The notes: a model not told the origin generated them from the sequence alone. 64,000 nt of DNA from Agathobacter rectalis ATCC 33656 (GCF_000020605.1 NC_012781.1:2419501-2483500), one strand, 5' to 3'; counted from the first letter of the stretch, positions 499 through 36,411 are shown. Translations and numbers: made by a program.

Positions 499-1776
499 TT
501 GGACGCTGACGACATATCGCAGATTATATTCTTATTAATACTATTAGCACTCTCCGCATTTTTTTCATCTTCGGAGACCGCTCTTACTACCGTAAACAAA
601 ATACGTATGAGAACCCTGGCTGAGGCTGGCAACACAAAAGCCAAAAAGGTGCTCAAGGTGACTGAGAACTCTCCAAAGATGCTCTCAGCCATCCTTATCG
701 GCAACAACATCGTAAATCTTTCAGCATCATCGCTCACCACCTCGCTTGCCATCAAGCTGTTTGGCAGCGTCGGAGCAGGTGTCGCAACCGGAATACTTAC
801 ATTCCTCATACTGATCTTCGGAGAGGTCTCTCCGAAGACACTTGCGACCATAAAGGCTGACAAGATTTCACTCTCAATCGCAGGCTTTATATCAGTGCTC
901 ATGGTAGTGCTGACACCTGTAATATTTATCATCAACAAGCTTTCACTCGGGGTCATTTTCCTCTTTGGAATAAGACAGAGCGATGCCAAACGCGTCATGA
1001 CCGAGGAGGAGCTTCGTACAATCGTTGATGTAGGACAGGAGGACGGTGTCATCGAGGATGAAGAGCGTGATATGATTCACAATGTATTCGATTTTGGAGA
1101 TGCCGAGGCCAAGGAGGTCATGGTTCCGCGTATTGATATGACGTTTGTCCATGTTGATTCTACTTATGATGATTTGATTTCCATATTCAGAGAGGATAAA
1201 TTCACCAGACTCCCTGTGTATGACGAAAGCACTGACAACGTAATCGGTATCGTAAATGTGAAGGATCTGCTACTCCTTAAGGATGAGGATAAAGAGCATT
1301 TTTCCATCAAAAATATCATGCGTGAGCCTTACTTTACATATGAGCACAAGAATACAGCGAATCTTTTTCTCGAGATGCGCGAATCATCTATATCGCTTGC
1401 CATTGTCTTAGATGAATACGGTGTCACAGCCGGACTCATCACACTTGAGGATCTCTTAGAGGAGATAGTCGGTGAGATTCGTGATGAATACGACTCTGAC
1501 GAGCAGGATGATATCACAAGAATAAATGACTACGAATACATAGTTCTTGGCTCTGCAAATCTCGAGGATGTAAGCGATGAGCTTGGTCTGCACCTCGAAT
1601 CAGACGACTATGACACAATCGGCGGCTACTGCCTTGAAAAGCTTGACCACCTGCCTGAAAAAAATGAAATAATCATCACTGATGACAATATCCTTCTCCG
1701 CATAGAGGCTGTTGATAAAAACCGAATCGAAAAGGTCTATATCAAATTGCCAAAGCCTGCCGAAGAAGAGAATTAA
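499..1776 (+). CDS. CNNM/CorC-type membrane protein with CBS pair (HlyC/CorC family)
   Basis: The 425-residue protein has the full architecture of the hemolysin C/CorC (CNNM) family: a DUF21 membrane domain at about residues 1-185 with several hydrophobic segments, a tandem CBS pair at about 205-325 (including the RLPVYDES and LEDLLEEIVGEIRDE signatures), and a C-terminal CorC/HlyC domain at about 340-420. Members are linked to magnesium or cobalt homeostasis; transport by this copy is inferred from family only. The start chosen is TTG at 499, supported by AACGAGG eight bases upstream; no ATG gives a better fit. The last 75 bases of the gene are duplicated at 2324-2398 without the rest of the gene. 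Confidence 0.9.
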   Translation: MDADDISQIIFLLILLALSAFFSSSETALTTVNKIRMRTLAEAGNTKAKKVLKVTENSPKMLSAILIGNNIVNLSASSLTTSLAIKLFGSVGAGVATGILTFLILIFGEVSPKTLATIKADKISLSIAGFISVLMVVLTPVIFIINKLSLGVIFLFGIRQSDAKRVMTEEELRTIVDVGQEDGVIEDEERDMIHNVFDFGDAEAKEVMVPRIDMTFVHVDSTYDDLISIFREDKFTRLPVYDESTDNVIGIVNVKDLLLLKDEDKEHFSIKNIMREPYFTYEHKNTANLFLEMRESSISLAIVLDEYGVTAGLITLEDLLEEIVGEIRDEYDSDEQDDITRINDYEYIVLGSANLEDVSDELGLHLESDDYDTIGGYCLEKLDHLPEKNEIIITDDNILLRIEAVDKNRIEKVYIKLPKPAEEEN

Positions 1777-1841
1777 ATTCAGGATCGTTTAACCAGCGGG
1801 AGTTCTCCATGAGACCTCCTGCTTTATTTTTGCTGTAATAC
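1742..1841 (-). pseudogene. Remnant of the 3' end of a surface-protein gene
   Basis: Read on the minus strand, this stretch encodes KNKAGGLMENSRWLNDPEFN followed by a short tail and a stop. That is almost identical to the last residues of the intact surface protein at 2364-4097; one visible change is RQAL in place of REAL. Upstream of base 1841 the similarity stops and the frame runs into unrelated sequence next to the stop codon of the pilin-like gene at 1861. The last 35 bases overlap the 3' end of the CorC-like gene on the other strand. It is the second copy of the 140-bp block at 2324-2463. Confidence 0.75.
1795..1831 (+). terminator. Possible rho-independent terminator after the CorC-like gene
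   Basis: AGCGGGAGTTCTC pairs with GAGACCTCCTGCT around a three-base CAT loop, with one mismatch and one G-T wobble, and is followed by TTTATTTTT. It is placed 18 bases after the plus-strand stop. The same bases, read on the minus strand, also match the coding end of the surface protein at 2364-4097, so the hairpin may be partly a by-product of coding sequence. Confidence 0.55.
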
Positions 1842-1860
1842 AAATACCATTCTTCATACG

Positions 1861-2259
1861 CTAGTTATCCTCCATTGGCTGATCTGCTACAATAGTCTTT
1901 TTGCAGCTTATTTTCTTTGTCACACCTGTAGGAAGCTTGAATTCTTCCTCTATTCCTGCTGAAATAATGCCCTTTTCCATATCACATACATAGACTGTGG
2001 CACTTGCAGTACCGCCTGCTGTAAGCCTCTCATTAATGTCCTCTATGACAGCTTTTTCCACATCATAGCTGCTGACGGGCTTTTTATCCACGATATACAT
2101 ATTTGGCTCGTAATATCTGTTCATAGCACCCGAAAGTGCTAATGACAGACTCTTTTCCATCTGGTTCTCCCTGACTGTCATATTGTATACACTAAGCCCA
2201 AGCATCGCTGTATACACTACAATAAGACAGCCTATTATTCCAAGTACTACATTTTTCAT
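1861..2259 (-). CDS. Pilin-like or TadE-like membrane protein, 132 aa
   Basis: The protein starts with a single hydrophobic helix at about residues 4-25 (VVLGIIGCLIVVYTAMLGLS) and continues with about 105 mostly polar residues predicted to lie outside the membrane. This is the layout of TadE/TadF-type pseudopilins and of type II secretion pseudopilins, but I cannot assign a named family. It is the last intact gene of the Tad-like cluster on the minus strand. Just upstream of its start lies the truncated tail of another pilin-like gene (2261-2320), so the promoter-proximal order has been rearranged. The 25 bases 5' of its ATG (AAAGGTAGCAGG) come from that remnant and provide a weak ribosome-binding site. 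Confidence 0.65.
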   Translation of the reverse strand: MKNVVLGIIGCLIVVYTAMLGLSVYNMTVRENQMEKSLSLALSGAMNRYYEPNMYIVDKKPVSSYDVEKAVIEDINERLTAGGTASATVYVCDMEKGIISAGIEEEFKLPTGVTKKISCKKTIVADQPMEDN

Positions 2260-2323: not shown

Positions 2324-2463
2324 ATAGAGGCTGTTGATAAAAACCGAATCGGAAAGGTCTATATCAAATTGCCAAGGCCTCCCGAAGAAGAGAATTAAAT
2401 TCAGGATCGTTTAACCAGCGGGAGTTCTCCATGAGGCCTCCTGCTTTATTTTTGCCATAATAC
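2324..2463. repeat. 140-bp direct duplication, copy 2
   Basis: Second copy of the block at 1702-1841, offset by 622 bases. Here the CorC-like tail is a dead fragment, while the minus-strand surface-protein frame reads through it to its stop at 2364. The left edge is a clean junction with the truncated pilin-like tail at 2320. Confidence 0.95.
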
Positions 2464-4097
2464 TTTTCGCTTATGAATCTAATCTTTCCAAAGGCTTTGG
2501 TTCTCTCCTTGACCTGAGTATCTGTAAATGTGATGGATATAGTCTTTTGCGTGATATTTCCATAGCTGTCCTTTGCCTCAAGCACTATCTCTATGATATC
2601 CTTGTCACGTGCACTTTCTATTTTACGGTCATCAAAATTTTTCACTTTCAGATAATTTATCTCGTTATCGCCAAACGCAATATCACCATCCTCCACATCC
2701 GTTGCAGATATAAGGCTTCCTATCAGCTGCTCTGTTATACCGCCATTCCTTGCCTGCTTTATCGAAAAGAACATATCATCCGCCTCTATGGTAGGCTCAT
2801 GCTCCCAAAGTGCATACATACGTATTACCGCCTTATCTGTATACTCTATCCCCAGTATCCTGCATAAATCAGCTACCTGTATACTCTCTCCCGGCGTATA
2901 TTTTATATCAGGATACTCTTCTCCTAAAATCCAGCCTATACACATATGCTGGCTTGGCAATGTCACCGTATCACTATACTTCACAGTGGCAGATACACCG
3001 GTGTCATATTCTATGGTATACTCATTTTCCTGCCATACTGCGTATATATTTTTCGACGGTCTGTTTGACTCAATCCAGCTGTTTGCCACACCACACAATA
3101 ACGGATATACGGCAGTCGTATCATACAAATTATTTCCCCAGCCACTCATATGATACCCGGCCATCTGCCAGCCCACAGCCGGAAAAGCCTGATTGATGCC
3201 TCCATATGTGTAGCTCTTTGAGGTCTTTTCTGAATCAGACGCACTCGTATTCCGCCAGAATGTCACAGCTATAGTACCTGCCTTTGCGTATGCCGTATAA
3301 GTACCACCCGAATTCACATAAAAACCATATGATGATGAGCTCATTGACGAATCATTGTTCCAATTCGTGAAATCATATCCGGCAGAACTGCTTGCACTTA
3401 TTGTCACATATGTACCATAGCAGTATGTACCTCCCCCTGATACACAACTTATGCCTGTAGACTTCCTGACATCAATTGTATGAAACAGTCCTCTCACCGT
3501 CTTGCCATAATACGAATACAGTGCTGATAGTGCGCTGTCCGTCCAGTTTGCCGCTTTGGATATACCTGCATATGTAGTATAAACCTTTCCCCAGGAAGGA
3601 CCATTATCATTCATGCCACCCTTGTTCTTGCCATTTACTCGAAGCACCATGCAGGCATCGAGGATGATAGTGCATGAGCCGGAGCTAAGGGCATTGAGAG
3701 ATTCTTGATTCATTCTGTTTCTAACATATCTCAAAGGAATTTTGTACATCATATATTCCTTCCCACTTGACTTTGCTTGACATTTAAGTGTCATATAGCT
3801 TCCACCCATTTGATAATAAATGGTCTGAATAACATTCCCACTACTATTTTTTACACTCATTTTGTAGCCTATTGTCCTATATTTTGTTCCTGAAGTAGAT
3901 GTATTTCCTGCTGAACAAAAATAAATATCGCCCTCATATATGTTTGTAGGCTTAAAAACTGCACTGTTTCCGTAACTATTATAAAACTTAACCGGCTCAC
4001 TCCATTCATCTGCAATAATATTACTTTTCTCAAAATTTAACCCTATACATATAATTAGCAATACTCCTACTATTAACTTCTTTAAAAATTCTTTCAT
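2364..4097 (-). CDS. Secreted repeat-containing surface protein of the Tad-like locus, 577 aa
   Basis: A signal peptide is visible at the N-terminus (MKEFLKKLIVGVLLIICIGL), followed by a large extracellular region with no further membrane segment. The middle has repeats rich in Gly, Ser and Tyr (for example GGGTYCYGTYVTISASSSAG with FTNWNND) and two YALW/YAVW modules like those of InlB-type B-repeats found in Firmicutes adhesins. A C-terminal segment is an Ig-like fold candidate (DVEDGDI, DSYGNITQKTISITFTD), and the protein ends in a SRWLNDPEF motif. No LPXTG anchor is seen. The start at 4097 is chosen because it gives the signal peptide; an ATG at 4130 in the same frame would add an unlikely extension. 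The gene follows the anchored protein at 4100 by two bases. It may be a pilus-tip or secreted cargo protein; that is inference. Confidence 0.7.
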   Translation of the reverse strand: MKEFLKKLIVGVLLIICIGLNFEKSNIIADEWSEPVKFYNSYGNSAVFKPTNIYEGDIYFCSAGNTSTSGTKYRTIGYKMSVKNSSGNVIQTIYYQMGGSYMTLKCQAKSSGKEYMMYKIPLRYVRNRMNQESLNALSSGSCTIILDACMVLRVNGKNKGGMNDNGPSWGKVYTTYAGISKAANWTDSALSALYSYYGKTVRGLFHTIDVRKSTGISCVSGGGTYCYGTYVTISASSSAGYDFTNWNNDSSMSSSSYGFYVNSGGTYTAYAKAGTIAVTFWRNTSASDSEKTSKSYTYGGINQAFPAVGWQMAGYHMSGWGNNLYDTTAVYPLLCGVANSWIESNRPSKNIYAVWQENEYTIEYDTGVSATVKYSDTVTLPSQHMCIGWILGEEYPDIKYTPGESIQVADLCRILGIEYTDKAVIRMYALWEHEPTIEADDMFFSIKQARNGGITEQLIGSLISATDVEDGDIAFGDNEINYLKVKNFDDRKIESARDKDIIEIVLEAKDSYGNITQKTISITFTDTQVKERTKAFGKIRFISEKYYGKNKAGGLMENSRWLNDPEFNSLLREALAI

Positions 4098-4099
4098 AA

Positions 4100-4981
4100 C
4101 TAAAAAATACCAACTCCCCACATATAGCATATCAGATATCCGTATTCATCATATTCTCCTTTAGTATACAGGCCTGTAAAATTATAAAATCCATATGACT
4201 CAGCTAGAGCCTCATTATAATTAGGTATCTCATTTTTTGACGGATAAATACATCTGTCATCACCAGAAATTCCTACTGAATTCAATGATAATCCCCACTC
4301 TTCTTTCATCTTATGTGCAATCTGTTCCGCTAAATATGAATCAGATATACTTCCATCTGTCCACTGTTTTACCAACGAATCAATATACGCCTTCTGCTCC
4401 CCTGTCATGCCATTTCCAGCCTTACTGCCATAAAATATCCATCCCGGTGCAACATACTCATTTTTTGGTGCTTCCGGCTGCGCAGGCTCACTTTGAGCCG
4501 GCTCAGGTGCGACTGTCTGATTTGATGCTGCCGGTTTTGAATCGTTACCTGCAGGTTGTTGTGTGTTATTGCTGTCTGTCGATGTCTTTTTGCCGCCTGT
4601 CGATGTCTTTTTATCTGCTGCTGTTTTGTCTTCTGATAATTTGTCAGAAGATTTATCTGACGCTGTATTTGCATTATCTGAATTACCGGCTGCCGGTACG
4701 GAATTATCATTTGTATCTGATTGCGTACCGTTATTTTGCTTATTATCTTTATCAACTACATTTGTTTCCTTCAATGCATCCTTTTTCACAAGCTCAAGTG
4801 TCTCGCTTTCAGCTACAATGTCCTGCGTATTTTCTGTCACACTGACAGACCGGGAATCCTTTTTCTTCCCCTTTTCTCCTGATTTTGAGCTTACTGCCAC
4901 TGCTATACATATGATAAGAATTATTGCTATTATCACTGCCGGTATAATAAATAAAAGTCTGTGTTGTTTTTCATTTTTCAT
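4100..4981 (-). CDS. Membrane-anchored low-complexity protein of the Tad-like locus, 293 aa
   Basis: The protein has a short basic start, a strong membrane helix at about residues 8-31 (LLFIIPAVIIAIILIICIAV), then about 140 residues of low-complexity Asp/Ser/Thr/Lys/Asn/Pro-rich linker with short internal repeats (KKTSTGGKKTSTDS, EPAQSEPAQPEAP), and a compact C-terminal domain of about 115 residues rich in aromatic residues. This is the layout of a wall-spanning protein with an outer domain. I do not recognise the C-terminal domain. It starts one base after the stop of the pilin-like gene at 4983, and its end touches the surface-protein gene, so the three are probably one transcript. Confidence 0.65.
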   Translation of the reverse strand: MKNEKQHRLLFIIPAVIIAIILIICIAVAVSSKSGEKGKKKDSRSVSVTENTQDIVAESETLELVKKDALKETNVVDKDNKQNNGTQSDTNDNSVPAAGNSDNANTASDKSSDKLSEDKTAADKKTSTGGKKTSTDSNNTQQPAGNDSKPAASNQTVAPEPAQSEPAQPEAPKNEYVAPGWIFYGSKAGNGMTGEQKAYIDSLVKQWTDGSISDSYLAEQIAHKMKEEWGLSLNSVGISGDDRCIYPSKNEIPNYNEALAESYGFYNFTGLYTKGEYDEYGYLICYMWGVGIF

Positions 4982-4982
4982 T

Positions 4983-5447
4983 TTATATATCCGCTACCTT
5001 TCTATTAATTGGAATACTTATCCTCACATGATCCCTTGTGCCGTTTTTGCAGGTTATCCTGACATGCATATCATACACACCATAATCCGGAAAGCTAAGT
5101 GATGAGCCATCGGCTGATATGCTGCCTGTACAGTCATTTCTGCCCGAATCATACAGGGCATAAACTTCAAGCTTATCCAGATTATCCTCATGCGCTGTAA
5201 CATCAAGCAGGTCATATACACTGTAGCTTACGGCATTCTGACGCATCTTCTCCTTTAGCTCAATACCCGGAACCGGTATATTTTTCATGCTGTCATAGCT
5301 GTCGTTTGCGCTATCGCTGCTCAATATATCCTGTGGTGCAAATGCCACACTCATTTTGTTTTTCAGAGCCCCAAATCCCGACAGCAGCGCAATTCCCACA
5401 ACCACCGCCACTATCATGGCTCCATATGTCTGCATTATCTCCTTCAT
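4983..5447 (-). CDS. Pilin-like membrane protein, 154 aa
   Basis: The N-terminus MKEIMQTYGAMIVAVVVGIA begins with a short charged stretch and runs straight into a hydrophobic helix of about 20 residues. About 125 polar residues follow that look extracellular, including KMRQNAVSYSVYDLLDV and a terminal DHVRISIPINRK strand. The first nine residues resemble the starts of the small proteins at 5466-5612 (MKEVFRQYGG) and 8668-8841 (MKEIFQEYGG), so it belongs to the same paralogous family with a longer outer domain. A truncated copy of its 3' end survives at 2261-2320. Family name unknown; a pseudopilin role is inferred from layout and operon. Confidence 0.7.
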   Translation of the reverse strand: MKEIMQTYGAMIVAVVVGIALLSGFGALKNKMSVAFAPQDILSSDSANDSYDSMKNIPVPGIELKEKMRQNAVSYSVYDLLDVTAHEDNLDKLEVYALYDSGRNDCTGSISADGSSLSFPDYGVYDMHVRITCKNGTRDHVRISIPINRKVADI

Positions 5448-5465
5448 CTATAGTCTCCCGGTTAT

Positions 5466-5612
5466 TTAAATTGCACTGTTACCCCATATATTTATAAGCT
5501 GCGCAAGCATGCCTCCCTGAGCCAGCACAATATTTCCCATCAACACGAGAAATGCACTTGTGGCGGCCGCTGCAATCAGCACGCCTCCATACTGTCTGAA
5601 TACTTCTTTCAT
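5466..5612 (-). CDS. Small pilin-like protein, 48 aa
   Basis: A 48-residue protein beginning MKEVFRQYGGVLIAAAATSA and consisting almost entirely of one hydrophobic helix plus a short Gln/Gly-rich tail that ends LINIWGNSAI. The start shares the MKE-hydrophobic-aromatic pattern, then YGG, with the proteins at 4983-5447 and 8668-8841. A weak ribosome-binding site (AAAGG) lies upstream. It sits between a 32-aa hydrophobic protein and the longer pilin-like protein in an unbroken minus-strand array. Probably a major or minor pilin of the Tad-like machine (inference). Confidence 0.65.
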   Translation of the reverse strand: MKEVFRQYGGVLIAAAATSAFLVLMGNIVLAQGGMLAQLINIWGNSAI

Positions 5613-5654
5613 TTTCTCTTACCTTTACATACTTTTTAATCAATTCAGTTACTA

Positions 5655-5753
5655 TCACAGCAGAGTAGACACATACACGAGCACACCGATTACTCCACTG
5701 CCTAAAAGAAGCATAATAACGCTTCCTCCCAATTCTTCTATTAAAAGCTCCAT
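5655..5753 (-). CDS. Very small hydrophobic protein, 32 aa
   Basis: A 32-residue frame (MELLIEELGGSVIMLLLGSG, then VIGVLVYVSTLL) with an acidic start and one membrane helix. The ribosome-binding site is strong, AGGAGG seven bases before the ATG, which is the main reason to accept it. It lies between the TadE-like gene and the 48-aa pilin-like gene. The ELGG-hydrophobic start resembles the YGG-hydrophobic start of its neighbours, so it may be a further, shorter pilin-like subunit. No family recognised. Confidence 0.55.
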   Translation of the reverse strand: MELLIEELGGSVIMLLLGSGVIGVLVYVSTLL

Positions 5754-5795
5754 CTGTTTTCCTCCTCTTATACAGCCATATCCACAAGAAAAGTA

Positions 5796-6170
5796 CTACA
5801 ACGCATATCCGCTCAGCACATGCTCCTGCTCAATTCCGAAAAATGCTACCGCGTAAGTGAACTTAAGCTCCACTCTTGCCTTTTCTATCTCATCTGATGA
5901 AGTGATTTGTGATGCGTCTGTAACTGTCCTTATGGAATTGTCTGTCATATACAGTTTAAGCTCCAGTGTATCTCCGGCTTTTGATGCATTTTCAAAGCAG
6001 GTCTGCGCAACCGAGCTGTCATAATCACTGTCCTCAAGCTCATTGATGATCTGCGCATGTATGTTCTGTGCCTCAACGACAGTCATAAATCCCGACAGCA
6101 CACCTGATGATGTAACCACCATAAACATAATCAAAAACACACCTAAAAAGGTCTTCATTATCTGACTCAC
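5796..6170 (-). CDS. TadE-like pseudopilin, 124 aa
   Basis: A basic start is followed by one hydrophobic helix at about residues 6-30 (TFLGVFLIMFMVVTSSGVLS), then a QNIHAQIINELEDSDYDSS stretch and a short outer domain. A helix followed by a polar region that begins with a turn and an amphipathic segment is typical of TadE/TadF-type minor pilins. The gene starts ten bases after the stop of the large membrane protein at 6181-7566, so it belongs to the same operon. Sequence identity to known TadE could not be tested here. Confidence 0.6.
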   Translation of the reverse strand: MSQIMKTFLGVFLIMFMVVTSSGVLSGFMTVVEAQNIHAQIINELEDSDYDSSVAQTCFENASKAGDTLELKLYMTDNSIRTVTDASQITSSDEIEKARVELKFTYAVAFFGIEQEHVLSGYAL

Positions 6171-6180
6171 AACACACCCC

Positions 6181-7566
6181 CTACACTACCTTGTATGATA
6201 AAAAGCTTATAAGGAAAATAGCCATATCAACTATCATCTTAAATGATGCTGTGATAACAGGAGCCAAAAACAAAAGATACATGCCGGCGGTCTTATCCTT
6301 AAGCCTCGCGGTGTCTGCTACATCAAGCATCTCCAGATTCTTCGTAATAAGCTCATCAATCTGACTTCCGCAATTGCCACTATTTCCAATCGAAACAGCA
6401 TATAGCATGCCCATGGCTGCGTTTATCTCCGGCAGGTTCAAACAGTCAAGAAATCTGTGATACGGGTCAGAGCTCTCCGGCTCCACGTCCAGTCTCTCCA
6501 CAAGCGTATTTACCTCTTCCTTAAGTATCACCGGTATATGCTCTCTCGACTTTTGTATGGCTACCTGCACATTTTCACTCTGAATCAATAGGGCGAGGTC
6601 CATCAGCCATTTGGGAAATGCACTCTTTACATCCGCTATCAGATTTTTCTTCATAAGCCTGTGACCTATACGGTGCTGATTCAGACATATAAGAGCTGCT
6701 CCCATAGCTGCCACAGCCGGCCATTGTCTGTCAGTATACAGTAAAAATGCACTGGCTAACGCCGGTATAACAGCCATAAGAATTGACGCACGAAGCTCCT
6801 TTGCCGGATTGTATGCCTTGTATTCCTCAAGCTTTTTGGCATGCTTATCATCCTCCGGCAGCAGATCAATTCCAAGATAATCCACTTCAAGAAATTTCTG
6901 CCCCCAGAGTATGATTAAATCATCAAGCACTATAAGAGCTACAGACAGTATCTGCACAATGATATTGCTGCTGATATCCATGCTCAAAACCGGCAGATAA
7001 AGTATGATTCCACTAATGATAACAGAGGTCACAACTGACAGGATAATCTGATGAAACATCCTCTGTCTGTCCTCTATATTGCGCAGTATCCTGCGCTCCC
7101 ATGCACTCTTATCCTTAAGCAGTATCCTGGCTGATTCTTTAATATCACCGCCATAGTACTCAGCGTGTGCCATAAACTCGTGTGCATTTACTATTCGGTT
7201 GCACTTGTACTCATCTTCGATAATCCTCATAGCATCCACAAACACCTCTGTCTCATCAAACGTGAGCATCATATGATCAATAGCCCTGCTCACAGTCTCC
7301 TTCATATGACCATCTGCCAGTGTGCTCTTTACATCCTCAAATGCACGGATTATCTTCTGCTCCTTCAAAAACGAATACAGCAGGGTGTCAATATACAGCG
7401 ATACATCCAGAAAGCGCTTTCGCGCTTCCTGAAATCTTTGGCCTTTGATTCGGTGAAAATGCTGCATAACAAGAAGAAAAACAAGTACCACAGCTGTACA
7501 CACCCAGTTTAACTTGAGCAGAAGATGCAGCACATATGTCAGAAAAAAAATCAATATATACGTCAT
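6181..7566 (-). CDS. Type II secretion F/TadB-TadC-like membrane protein, 461 aa
   Basis: The protein appears to hold two F-type units in one chain. It has an N-terminal membrane helix pair (about 1-35), a cytoplasmic helical domain (about 40-165), a membrane pair near 170-220, a second membrane pair near 262-305, a second cytoplasmic helical domain (about 305-430) and a last helix near 435-458. Separate TadB and TadC proteins are each about 300 residues, so this looks like a reduced fusion of the two; this is inferred from layout. Its gene starts two bases after the stop of the CpaF-like ATPase, the order expected for a motor ATPase and its inner-membrane platform. Confidence 0.7.
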   Translation of the reverse strand: MTYILIFFLTYVLHLLLKLNWVCTAVVLVFLLVMQHFHRIKGQRFQEARKRFLDVSLYIDTLLYSFLKEQKIIRAFEDVKSTLADGHMKETVSRAIDHMMLTFDETEVFVDAMRIIEDEYKCNRIVNAHEFMAHAEYYGGDIKESARILLKDKSAWERRILRNIEDRQRMFHQIILSVVTSVIISGIILYLPVLSMDISSNIIVQILSVALIVLDDLIILWGQKFLEVDYLGIDLLPEDDKHAKKLEEYKAYNPAKELRASILMAVIPALASAFLLYTDRQWPAVAAMGAALICLNQHRIGHRLMKKNLIADVKSAFPKWLMDLALLIQSENVQVAIQKSREHIPVILKEEVNTLVERLDVEPESSDPYHRFLDCLNLPEINAAMGMLYAVSIGNSGNCGSQIDELITKNLEMLDVADTARLKDKTAGMYLLFLAPVITASFKMIVDMAIFLISFLSYKVV

Positions 7567-7568
7567 TC

Positions 7569-8678
7569 CTAAGCCTCCCTCTCCTCACTCATCATGGCCT
7601 CATTCATCCTTATCTCATTGACAAAGGACTCGCCAAACGGCTCATTCACACCCTCTCTTTTAAATCTGCGAAGTATGACCTTTGGTATATCGTGAGTCAC
7701 TATCTGTCCGTCTGATACAAGCATAAACACATGATTGGTATAGTTTTCCCTGTAGAAAAAGCACACCTGATCTATGTATCTGTACACTACTCCGTCTTCA
7801 TTTCTTCTCTTGCGGATCAAAATTCCCACATCAAGTGCCTGATATATGTCATTCTCCATACGCTCTGCATCCACACGGCTCTCTAGCATATTGAGTATTC
7901 TGTCCGGTATATTGCGCACATCATCTGTGTGGAGTGTCGTCATGCCACGCACACCGGTGCTCCAGCTCTGCAGCAGATATTTTACCTCCTTTGAGCGTGC
8001 CTCTGAGAGCATAATCCACTTTGGATTCATTCTAAGACATGACTTGATAGCCTCAGAGTAGCCAAACACATCCTCACTCACCTTCATCTCTATACAGTCC
8101 TTGCCCGGATTTGTCTCGGCATAACGTATCTCAAGAGTATCCTCAATTGTAATCACGCGCTCATTCGCCGGTATAAACTGTGAAAAAAACTTCACGCACT
8201 CCGTCTTTCCGATGCCCGGCATCCCGCAAAAGGTGATATTCATCTTGGTCTTTACGCAGTTTATCAGTACAGCTAAAAGCTCCTCCGAGCAGAATTTCTC
8301 AGCAATTGCAGATTCTGCTGTCAGTCTGATAAGCGGCGGTGTCTTTCGTATGCTGATGCTCCTGCCCGACTTCGCAACCGATTCATGCAGTATCGTCACA
8401 CGAAGCTCGCTCGTCTCGGCCTCAAGCTCCGGATTTCTCTTATTGAACTGTCTGCTTACGACATTGGCGATGCGCTGTGTAAACTGCTCCACAAAAGCAG
8501 GTGTCATATACTGTGTGACAAACTGCTGATTGGCCCTGAAACGCTCATTAAATATATTTGTAAGCCATATTTCTTTGCCGTTATAATCTATATCCGTTAT
8601 CTCGTTGCTGGCTACAAAGCTCCAAAGCGGTCCAAAATATTCTTTTCCAAGCTCCATGTACCACCTCTTATTTGACAC
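7569..8678 (-). CDS. CpaF/TadA-type secretion ATPase, 369 aa
   Basis: This is a VirB11/CpaF-family ATPase that would power assembly of pilin-like subunits at the membrane. Walker A is CGMPGIGKTE at about residues 151-160, the Asp box is VITIEDTLE at 175-183, the Walker B region is WIMLSEARSKE at 221-231, and the His box is GMTTLHTDD at 245-253. At 369 residues it is shorter than many TadA proteins because it lacks a long N-terminal extension. It is preceded by the 57-aa pilin-like gene and followed directly by the membrane platform. The Walker B motif reads SEAR where CpaF proteins commonly have GEVR or GEIR. Confidence 0.85.
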   Translation of the reverse strand: MSNKRWYMELGKEYFGPLWSFVASNEITDIDYNGKEIWLTNIFNERFRANQQFVTQYMTPAFVEQFTQRIANVVSRQFNKRNPELEAETSELRVTILHESVAKSGRSISIRKTPPLIRLTAESAIAEKFCSEELLAVLINCVKTKMNITFCGMPGIGKTECVKFFSQFIPANERVITIEDTLEIRYAETNPGKDCIEMKVSEDVFGYSEAIKSCLRMNPKWIMLSEARSKEVKYLLQSWSTGVRGMTTLHTDDVRNIPDRILNMLESRVDAERMENDIYQALDVGILIRKRRNEDGVVYRYIDQVCFFYRENYTNHVFMLVSDGQIVTHDIPKVILRRFKREGVNEPFGESFVNEIRMNEAMMSEEREA

Positions 8679-8841
8679 TCATATTGGCATGATTTGAAAA
8701 GTTTATAATCAGATCACTAAATGTCTTTCCTACTATGCCTGTTGCATCAGAGCCTATAACCGCTGTTACAACGAGAATGATTGATAAAATAGCTACAACT
8801 GTTATGAGTATTCCGCCATATTCCTGAAAAATTTCCTTCAT
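8668..8841 (-). CDS. Small pilin-like protein, 57 aa, first gene of the Tad-like operon
   Basis: A 57-residue protein that starts MKEIFQEYGGILITVVAILS, has a single hydrophobic helix (about residues 10-30), and ends in a short polar tail (FSDLIINFSNHANMSVK). It is the first gene of the array and overlaps the start of the ATPase gene by 11 bases, so translation may be coupled. The N-terminal pattern is nearly the same as in the 48-aa protein at 5466-5612, which supports both as real genes. The tyrosine and glutamate just before the helix recall Flp-type pilins, but there is no long leader peptide. Confidence 0.7.
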   Translation of the reverse strand: MKEIFQEYGGILITVVAILSIILVVTAVIGSDATGIVGKTFSDLIINFSNHANMSVK

Positions 8842-8904: not shown

Positions 8905-9012
8905 ATATATGAAACTAAAAAACAAGGAAAAAAATAGTGGCCGAAATGCCACAAAAAGAAACCTGCATAGAACATATGCAAGACACAATTTAAAAAGATA
9001 TTTATATCTTAC

Positions 9013-9046
9013 ACAAAAATCGGGATTTGTAAATACCAAATCCCGA
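9013..9046 (-). terminator. Rho-independent terminator downstream of the aminotransferase
   Basis: A perfect 10-bp inverted repeat (TCGGGATTTG at 9020-9029, CAAATCCCGA at 9037-9046) has a 7-base loop. On the minus strand it is followed by TTTTTGTGT. It separates the aminotransferase transcript from the Tad-like operon. The rest of the 8842-9216 gap holds the tandem repeats below and AT-rich sequence with no gene. Confidence 0.75.
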
Positions 9047-9128
9047 AAAAATGTGCACAAATATTCATTTAGTTTTTATACATATATCACATACTTATTT
9101 TAGATAAATATGCCAATCATAAATCTCC

Positions 9129-9213
9129 CCGTTAGGACATAACAGAGAATTGCACATCTATCCGTTAAGACATAACAGTGAATTGTACGTCTGTCCGTTA
9201 AGACATAACAGTG
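9129..9213. repeat. 33-bp tandem repeats (2.5 copies)
   Basis: The unit begins CCGTTAAGACATAACAGTGA and recurs at 9129, 9162 and 9195 with an exact period of 33 bases; the third copy is cut short at the aminotransferase stop codon. The first copy has a few substitutions (TTAGG for TTAAG, AGAGA for AGTGA). It encodes nothing obvious. Copy number may vary among strains, as in minisatellites. Confidence 0.9.
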
Positions 9214-9216
9214 ATT

Positions 9217-10500
9217 TTATGCCTCGAGCAGCTTATTTACGCTGACAAGACGTGTGACAATAACAAACACCTCTGCAGCCTTTTTCAGCTCATCAAGTGA
9301 TGGATATGTCGGAGCAATTCTTATCACGCTGTCATCCGGATCCTTCTTGTAAGGGAAAGGAGAGCCTGCACCTGTCATTGTGACACCAGCTTCCTTGCAC
9401 TTTGCAACGATTTCCTTTGCACAGCCTGAAAGAGCCTCAAATCCGAAGAAGTATCCACCAAGCGGCTTAACCCATGTTCCGATGCCTCTTGAAGCAATTT
9501 CATCTGTGAGGATATTCTCAACCAGCTCGAATTTAGGTCTGATAAGAGCTGCATGCTTTGCCATATGAGCCTTGATACCATCTACATCCTTAAAGAATCT
9601 CGCATGACGAAGCTGATTAATCTTGTCGTGTCCGATTGTCTGTATAGTAAGGCGCTTCTTGATATCCTCACGGTTTTTCTCAGATGTGCATATACCTGCC
9701 ACGCCTGCACCAGGGAATGTCACCTTACTTGTTGAGCAGAACTCAAATACCATATCAGGGTTTCCCTCTTTCTCGCAGAGCTCAAGGATATTTGGAATCT
9801 CTGCCTGCTTATCATCATAGAGATGATGAACTGTGTATGCATTGTCCCAGAAGATTCTAAAATCATCTGCTGCAGGCTTAAGCTTTGCAAAGCGCTCAAC
9901 TGTCTCATCAGAGTATACAACACCCTGTGGGTTAGAGTATTTTGGAACACACCAGATTCCCTTTACAGAGGCATCGTTATTGACATATTTCTCAACCATA
10001 TCCATGTCAGGACCATCCTCAGTCATAGGGATGTTTATCATCTCAACTCCAAACTCCTCTGTGATTGCAAAGTGCCTGTCATAGCCCGGTACAGGACAGA
10101 GGAACTTCACCTTGTCAAGCTTGCACCATGGTGTATTGCCGCAAAGACCAAAGATAAATGCACGTGCAACCTGATCATACATGATATTGAGACTTGAGTT
10201 TCCATATACTATAGCCTGCTCAGGCTTTGCTCCTACCATGCCTGCGATAAGGGCCTTTGCCTCAGGAATTCCGTCCAGACATGCATAGTTTCTCACATCA
10301 AGTCCTGATTCACTTTTCATATCACTGTCTGATTTCAAGACATCGAGCATAGGGAGTGAGAGGTCAAGCTGGTCTGCTCCCGGCTTTCCACGCGACATGT
10401 CAAGGCTTAAGCCAAGATTCTTAATCTTCTCGTACTCAGCCTCAAGTGCTGTCTTTTCCTGCATTAACTCGTCCTTTGTCATTTCTGTATACTTTTTCAT
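9217..10500 (-). CDS. Aspartate aminotransferase-like PLP enzyme, MocR-like subgroup (427 aa)
   Basis: A fold-type I PLP-dependent aminotransferase of the Asp_aminotransf (subgroup 1c) type, predicted to transfer the amino group between aspartate and 2-oxoglutarate in the cytoplasm. Supporting motifs are the substrate-binding DMSRGKPG near the start (residues 34-41), the PLP-contacting FWDNAY at 217-222, and the Schiff-base lysine in CSTSKVTFPGAGV (Lys259). The length fits the family. A good ribosome-binding site (AGGAGGATC) precedes the ATG. The gene lies downstream of rarA on the same strand with an 83-base gap, and a terminator and 33-bp repeats follow it. Confidence 0.85.
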   Translation of the reverse strand: MKKYTEMTKDELMQEKTALEAEYEKIKNLGLSLDMSRGKPGADQLDLSLPMLDVLKSDSDMKSESGLDVRNYACLDGIPEAKALIAGMVGAKPEQAIVYGNSSLNIMYDQVARAFIFGLCGNTPWCKLDKVKFLCPVPGYDRHFAITEEFGVEMINIPMTEDGPDMDMVEKYVNNDASVKGIWCVPKYSNPQGVVYSDETVERFAKLKPAADDFRIFWDNAYTVHHLYDDKQAEIPNILELCEKEGNPDMVFEFCSTSKVTFPGAGVAGICTSEKNREDIKKRLTIQTIGHDKINQLRHARFFKDVDGIKAHMAKHAALIRPKFELVENILTDEIASRGIGTWVKPLGGYFFGFEALSGCAKEIVAKCKEAGVTMTGAGSPFPYKKDPDDSVIRIAPTYPSLDELKKAAEVFVIVTRLVSVNKLLEA

Positions 10501-26340: not shown

Positions 26341-26610
26341 GTACGTAGCATAAGCCGGTGGTGGGGGCAGACGGTGCTGTCGTGCGGGCTACGCTTCGCT
26401 GTTAAGTGTCTGTACGAATTATGCCCGCAGGTTTTCTATGCCCGACGAAACCGTCGAAACTCGCCTTCCATGGCTCGATTTCTCCTTGCCTCGGCGTCCG
26501 TGCCTCGGCATTTCTGTGCTTTACAGCATAATTCTACAGACACTAAACAGCTGCGCTATTCGCCCACCCGACAGCACCGCCTGCCCCCACCACCGGCTTA
26601 CGCCACTTAC
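26341..26610. repeat. Large structured inverted-repeat element 1
   Basis: Two imperfect inverted arms of about 83 bases (26341-26423 and 26526-26610) can fold into a very long stem: GCATAAGCCGGTGGTGGGGG pairs with the CCCCCACCACCGGCTTACGC arm, and AATTATGC at the apex pairs with GCATAATT. The 100-base apex loop holds two smaller hairpins closed by GCC-TTCCAT-GGC and GGC-GTCCGT-GCC. It is markedly more GC-rich than the flanks. The frames across it code for nothing recognisable. It is related to the element at 36127-36411. Confidence 0.85.
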
Positions 26611-36126: not shown

Positions 36127-36411
36127 GCAAAAGCTTTGGGGGCTTTGTTGTGTCAGGTCGCGCATTATGTATGGAATTATGTTCATGATTACGCTGCCAA
36201 GACACTGTAAAAATTATGATTAGGGATTGCTTAGGCCATGACGCAACCGGCTTTTAGCGCCGTCCATGGCGCTAACGCCTCGCCCGCACGTCCATGTGCG
36301 TGCGTTGCTGGGCTGTGTACATAATTTTAACAGTCTCTAGGCAGCTCCATAAATCACATAATTCCATACATAATGCGCGGCCTGATAATTCAGGCTGTGA
36401 GCTTTTGCTGT
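36127..36411. repeat. Large structured inverted-repeat element 2, inside the valS leader
   Basis: Inverted arms of about 92 bases (36127-36219 and 36321-36411) pair well: GCGCATTATGTATGGAATTA on the left matches the right arm CATAATTCCATACATAATGC closely, and AATTATG/CATAATT closes the apex. The apex loop of about 100 bases holds two GTCCAT hairpins, TTAGCGCC-GTCCAT-GGCGCTAA and CGCAC-GTCCAT-GTGCG. It lies between the T-box terminator and the valS start codon. It is related to element 1 at 26341-26610. Confidence 0.88.

Follow-up and report, generated by a model that had tools for sequence, protein, structure and literature searches.

A conserved, unannotated Tad-like system with leaderless pilin-like proteins in gut Lachnospiraceae

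The window analyzed here, a 64,000-nucleotide stretch of the Agathobacter rectalis ATCC 33656 genome (GCF_000020605.1, NC_012781.1:2419501-2483500; a single contig of 3,449,685 bases), carries on its minus strand a ten-gene operon (8841-1861) that is a real, conserved and unannotated Tad-like system of gut Lachnospiraceae. An earlier note, made from the sequence alone, had proposed a leaderless pilin-like family beside a reduced Tad-like motor and platform, and our analysis supports this. The operon encodes, as that note had it, one CpaF/VirB11-class ATPase and one platform protein, together with six small membrane proteins (p57, p124, p32, p48, p154 and p132). We consider it somewhat probable that the operon encodes a Tad-like chromosomal machine of the type IV filament class that dispenses with prepilin processing; on the best reading, it is a Tad-like pilus or pseudopilus that needs no prepilin peptidase and serves a cognate surface protein.

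All of the frames named in the note are present on the minus strand. The genes are separated by -11 to +42 bp, with 104 bp ahead of the last, and are, in operon order:

8668..8841, minus: p57, leaderless Flp-like small protein of 57 amino acids (MKEIFQEYGG), candidate main subunit
7569..8657, minus: CpaF/VirB11-class ATPase, Walker A GMPGIGKTE
6181..7566, minus: platform protein, 461 amino acids, a single gene of TadB plus TadC size, distant T2SSF relative
5796..6170, minus: p124, 124 amino acids, membrane-anchored, same start architecture (MSQIMKTFLG), no equivalent of Glu+5
5655..5753, minus: p32, one-helix protein of 32 amino acids (MELLIEELGG)
5466..5612, minus: p48, leaderless small protein of 48 amino acids (MKEVFRQYGG)
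4983..5447, minus: p154, 154 amino acids, leaderless helix then PKD/Ig-like beta domain (MKEIMQTYGA)
4100..4981, minus: p293, N-terminal membrane anchor, low-complexity linker and a C-terminal domain without family assignment
2364..4097, minus: surface protein, Sec-type signal, InlB B-repeat and C-terminal RFIS..Y..GGL..NSRW module (codons 2367-2555)
1861..2259, minus: p132, N-terminal membrane helix and extracytoplasmic domain, TadE/F-like in layout and perhaps in role

A leaderless, pilin-like protein family

Four of the six small-protein families begin, with no leader, on the pattern M-x5-[EQ]-[YF]-G. The shared start seen by the earlier note holds for p57, p48 and p154, whereas p32 and p124 of the window have only variants of it. 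Across 50 homologous loci, we counted starts followed by x5-[EQDTKNHRSA]-[YFH]-[GAS] and a hydrophobic stretch: there are 147 in the 279 kb of operon sequence and 4 in 807 kb of control, taken from the other strand and the flanking regions of these loci; the ratio of ~106-fold is only descriptive, because the pattern was composed after the family had been seen. These counts bear out the note's view that starts so alike are not chance. In the 147 frames, the median distance from the motif start back to an in-frame stop is 7 codons; 96 of them have no alternative start before that stop, and a ribosome site is present at 136. The note had also made its idea depend on protein-level conservation in related genomes, and this was found: against the nearest relative, the ratio of nonsynonymous to synonymous substitution rates (dN/dS) is 0.23 for p57 and p32, 0.20 for p48 and 0.10 for p124, so these short frames are constrained as proteins and under purifying selection.

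The register of the motif is that of Tad pilins. Flp pilins have been described by an acid at +5 and a tyrosine at +6 (Imam et al. 2011, PMC3244431), and both are features of the p57, p32, p48 and p154 families, with Glu7 in 52-81%, Tyr8 in 81-97% and Gly9 in 93-97%. The mature Caulobacter Tad pilin sequence begins ATAIEYG and matches chain 8u1k_A over its full length. Residues 7-9 of the small proteins (E-Y-G) equal +5 to +7 of that pilin, and the small proteins therefore begin two residues ahead of the mature pilin start. Residue 2 then falls at -1, where glycine is expected yet occurs in only 0-6%. A prepilin-type (class III) leader is lacking from all six small proteins, and no conserved glycine stands at -1 in the Flp register. 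Each of the 19 canonical Flp pilins from these genomes, by contrast, carries a leader, and its -1 residue is Gly or Ala.

By profile comparison, a single N-terminal family comprises p57, p48, p32 and p154 (97% probabilities). The predicted structure of p154 has a helix at residues 2-35 followed by a PKD/Ig-like domain (predicted local distance difference test score, pLDDT, 88). In locus L039, p57 is present as a tandem pair (5461-5628 and 5687-5854) with identical protein sequences, as might be expected for a main subunit. Members of p32, p48 and p154 were assigned across loci by position and motif because the paralogues cross-match by best hidden Markov model match; the model for p132 drifted onto surface proteins, and p132 N-termini were gathered by hand from locus layouts. 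The note had inferred that the small proteins are secretion substrates of this machine; judged by sequence, they look like filament subunits.

No small protein matches a family in Pfam or NCBIfam, and one-helix proteins readily look alike, so they could in principle be unrelated short membrane proteins beside a motor that acts on something else. We find this very improbable given the fixed EYG register, the shared N-terminal family, the p154 architecture and the CpaF-class motor and platform that constantly accompany these proteins. Being leaderless and without a family, such proteins would be missed by leader-based pilus searches.

Relatives of the platform were found by single-sequence search in 22 of 150 Lachnospiraceae genera and in 27 of 30 genomes of the genus Agathobacter. 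A profile search of 397 Lachnospiraceae genomes from 334 genera recovered them in 50 genomes and 43 genera. Of 391 genomes sampled across the class, five matched the profile, and three of the five lie outside the family; of these three loci, L127 and L128 have motif proteins and L129, a weak match, has none. Gene order is mostly kept at ~30% platform identity, with some rearrangement downstream of the platform gene. Its hosts are a common group of gut butyrate producers, in which the system is widespread. No description of it was found in family libraries or in the literature, most subscription papers lying outside the coverage of the search.

Motor, platform and their relatives

Family scans assign the ATPase to the CpaF/VirB11 class and its profile matches CpaF, so that a secretion ATPase of the PilB/TadA/VirB11 class, as in type IV filaments, is present. 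Its reading frame is open from GTG 8678, but the start is probably ATG 8657 because relatives begin MELGKEYFGPL. In a maximum-likelihood tree, the ATPases of the system form one clade (100/100) and those of canonical Tad loci another (100/94), the former lying outside the latter. Sister to the system ATPases (95/87) are not those of canonical Tad but CpaF/VirB11 proteins carried by Bacillus, Listeria, Enterococcus and Paraclostridium plasmids.

The platform is one gene, of 461 amino acids in the window and ~440-540 in relatives, and separate TadB and TadC genes are absent. T2SSF family matches were obtained for 11 of 47 platform members (best E=1.2e-4), the window protein itself having none in the family scan. 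The platform aligns colinearly with TadC in hhalign (probability 35%, E=3.9e-4), and its predicted structure is all-helical and confident (pLDDT 88). Sequence comparison thus points to a distant relative of T2SSF and TadC.

The system resembles the Tad/Flp (type IVc) pilus, including the genome's own canonical loci (L108 and L109), in its CpaF-class ATPase, its platform distantly like TadC, its tiny pilin-like proteins with Glu-Tyr-Gly and, by layout, its TadE/F-like extra subunits. Unlike in Tad/Flp, the subunits have no leaders, the locus does not encode TadV, a single platform gene takes the place of TadB plus TadC, and the ATPase belongs to a separate clade. It is Tad-like by design, yet departs from Tad in its leaders, local peptidase, two-gene platform and ATPase clade. 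Clostridial tad-like loci without any protein bearing an apparent prepilin signal have been reported (Imam et al. 2011, PMC3244431). As described, these have tadV, tadZ and rcpC, whereas our operon lacks tadV and its leaderless subunits are identified. TadZ and RcpC were not evident in the window operon, although no search was aimed at either. A ParA/TadZ-like N-terminus (e.g. MKIAFWSVDSRCGTTCNMLAVAAIFS) was observed in a gene upstream of p57 or the operon in the related loci L038, L102, L104, L114, L118 and L120.

The second relative is the CpaF/VirB11 module of Bacillota plasmids (conjugative in Bacillus, Listeria and Enterococcus, mobilizable in Paraclostridium, and of pLS20 type by content), which has the sister ATPase clade. 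In four such loci (L207, L208, L209 and L210) the motor is likewise followed by platform-position proteins, a ~120-amino-acid protein and leaderless membrane proteins of 47-50 amino acids. A large surface protein is present too, lying upstream in the plasmid loci and in some annotated with a thioester domain. The thioester adhesin of pLS20 is required for efficient conjugation (PMC8092201). Unlike the operon, the plasmid module has two platform-position genes and adjacent conjugation genes, and its small proteins begin MLDQNTDR, unlike the MKEIxxEYG proteins; no profile match was found between these and p48, and profile links beyond the ATPase are weak or absent. According to a recent review, Gram-positive type IV secretion systems universally lack VirB11 (PMC12857230). 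The sister relationship suggests a Tad-like motor, not a part of such a secretion system, behind the 'VirB11' annotation of some Gram-positive conjugative plasmids.

Sister ATPases on conjugative or mobilizable plasmids and the similar gene order might also mean that the operon is left over from a mating module associated with conjugation, or is its chromosomal relative. We find this very improbable: library scans of the ten operon genes detected neither VirB4 and VirD4 nor a relaxase, almost all genomes of the genus have the system, and the small genes are under purifying selection.

Prepilin processing and the proposed filament

The defining feature of type IV pilins is a class III signal peptide, which prepilin peptidase has to process before assembly (PMC10191384). 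No A24 prepilin peptidase gene lies within the window; the genome has four, ~380 kb or further from the operon, adjoining two canonical Tad loci and one type IV pilus locus. The note was therefore right that none is nearby. This is weak evidence, however, because MSH loci likewise have no peptidase of their own and are thought to borrow one (PMC6668835).

Several observations weigh against a machine that works without processing, or against a filament as such. An A24 gene is present somewhere in all 64 genomes with the system, none of which lacks one, and the Gly9 present at 93-97% in four families is a possible cleavage site. The p57 profile matches canonical Flp weakly, aligning over only 21 C-terminal columns, with Flp-family matches in 2 of 41 p57 members (E=0.01), and p57 has no Pfam match. 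A fold search of the PDB with the platform model returned no solved-fold match. Finally, we infer the filament itself from its genes.

The first two of these points could belong to a peptidase-dependent pilus, in which a nine-residue leader, MKEIFQEYG, would be cut after Gly9 by an A24 enzyme borrowed from a Tad or type IV pilus locus, as presumed for the MSH loci (PMC6668835). A cut there would take away the very Glu-Tyr pair by which Flp pilins are recognized, and +5 would no longer be acidic. In p124 and p132 there is no conserved glycine to cut after (within residues 2-16 glycine peaks at 51% and 50%, respectively), and EYG lies at a constant distance from Met1 in the different paralogues, in contrast to canonical Flp leaders. 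The A24 enzyme is uninformative, because 79 of 80 genomes lacking the system have one too. We regard cleavage after Gly9 as unlikely, though a serious contender.

Returning to the peptidase-independent machine, we propose a model where the subunits are translated starting approximately at the mature pilin start (Met-Lys-x-Ile-x-x-Glu-Tyr-Gly) and would insert in the membrane as signal anchors with the N-terminus in and the C-terminus out. The ATPase and platform would then lift these untrimmed subunits from the membrane into a short pilus or pseudopilus. Here p57 would be the main subunit and p32, p48 and p154 minor subunits. Known tip complexes are capped by a subunit lacking Glu5 (PMC10191384), and by analogy p124 and p132, which lack an equivalent of Glu+5, are candidates for a tip complex. 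The Sec-exported cognate surface protein would dock via its conserved C-terminal module and may be displayed as an adhesin. If subunits do start approximately at the mature position, prepilin processing can be lost and its purpose becomes testable. In a broader context, it is tempting to speculate, at slightly less than an even chance, that the operon represents one branch of machines resembling type IV filaments, located on the chromosome in gut Lachnospiraceae and perhaps on plasmids in other Bacillota, whose subunits are translated mature, need no prepilin peptidase and retain Met1, and which recruits a cognate surface protein via a new C-terminal module.

The surface protein and neighboring features

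The earlier note had placed the surface protein in the MKE family by its MKEF start. This was rejected: the start resembles an ordinary Sec-type signal peptide and has no EYG. The large neighboring proteins vary in body, with ChW and beta-helix, subtilase or InlB-repeat domains, but 21 of them have in common the C-terminal module RF[IV]..Y..GGL..xSxW, in which Arg, Gly-Gly and Ser are invariant (n=20 aligned). We searched for the module in 32 genomes, 27 with the system and 5 without. It was found in 26 of the 27, usually as a single copy (G066 has none), and in none of the 5; G168 has three copies, and G171 and G762 have two apiece, matching the number of platform genes in each. A few of these matches are weak or on another contig. 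The module broadly tracks the system, which suggests that its bearer is a dedicated surface-protein partner of the machine.

Each system has approximately one cognate large protein, and these proteins share the C-terminal module on bodies that include subtilase, beta-helix, ChW and InlB-repeat domains. This would also suit a pseudopilus-type device for export or display of the neighboring surface protein, similar to the piston of a type II secretion system, whose small proteins form no surface filament. The size and layout of p57 are those of an Flp major pilin, its two tandem copies in L039 fit poorly with such a device, and the surface proteins carry their own Sec-type signals; we hold this alternative to be improbable, though worth keeping in mind.

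Two direct repeats, 1701-1841 / 2323-2463 (141 nt, 96%) and 2250-2320 / 4972-5042 (71 nt, 92%), flank and duplicate the 3' ends of both the surface gene and p154. One further feature lies downstream of the operon:

1748..1840, minus: relic of the 3' end of another surface-protein gene, repeating the C-terminal module

Together, the repeats and the relic look like the gain or swap of a cassette of p293 and the surface gene. No family match at cut-off was found for p293 in Pfam and NCBIfam-type library scans.

Upstream of the operon, a 33-nt unit is present in three tandem copies (9123-9221), beside several terminator-like hairpins at 8937-9149. Elsewhere in the window, two TwoAYGGAY RNA motifs (RF01731) lie 10 kb apart on the minus strand (26391-26558 and 36186-36352), each scoring ~130 bits.

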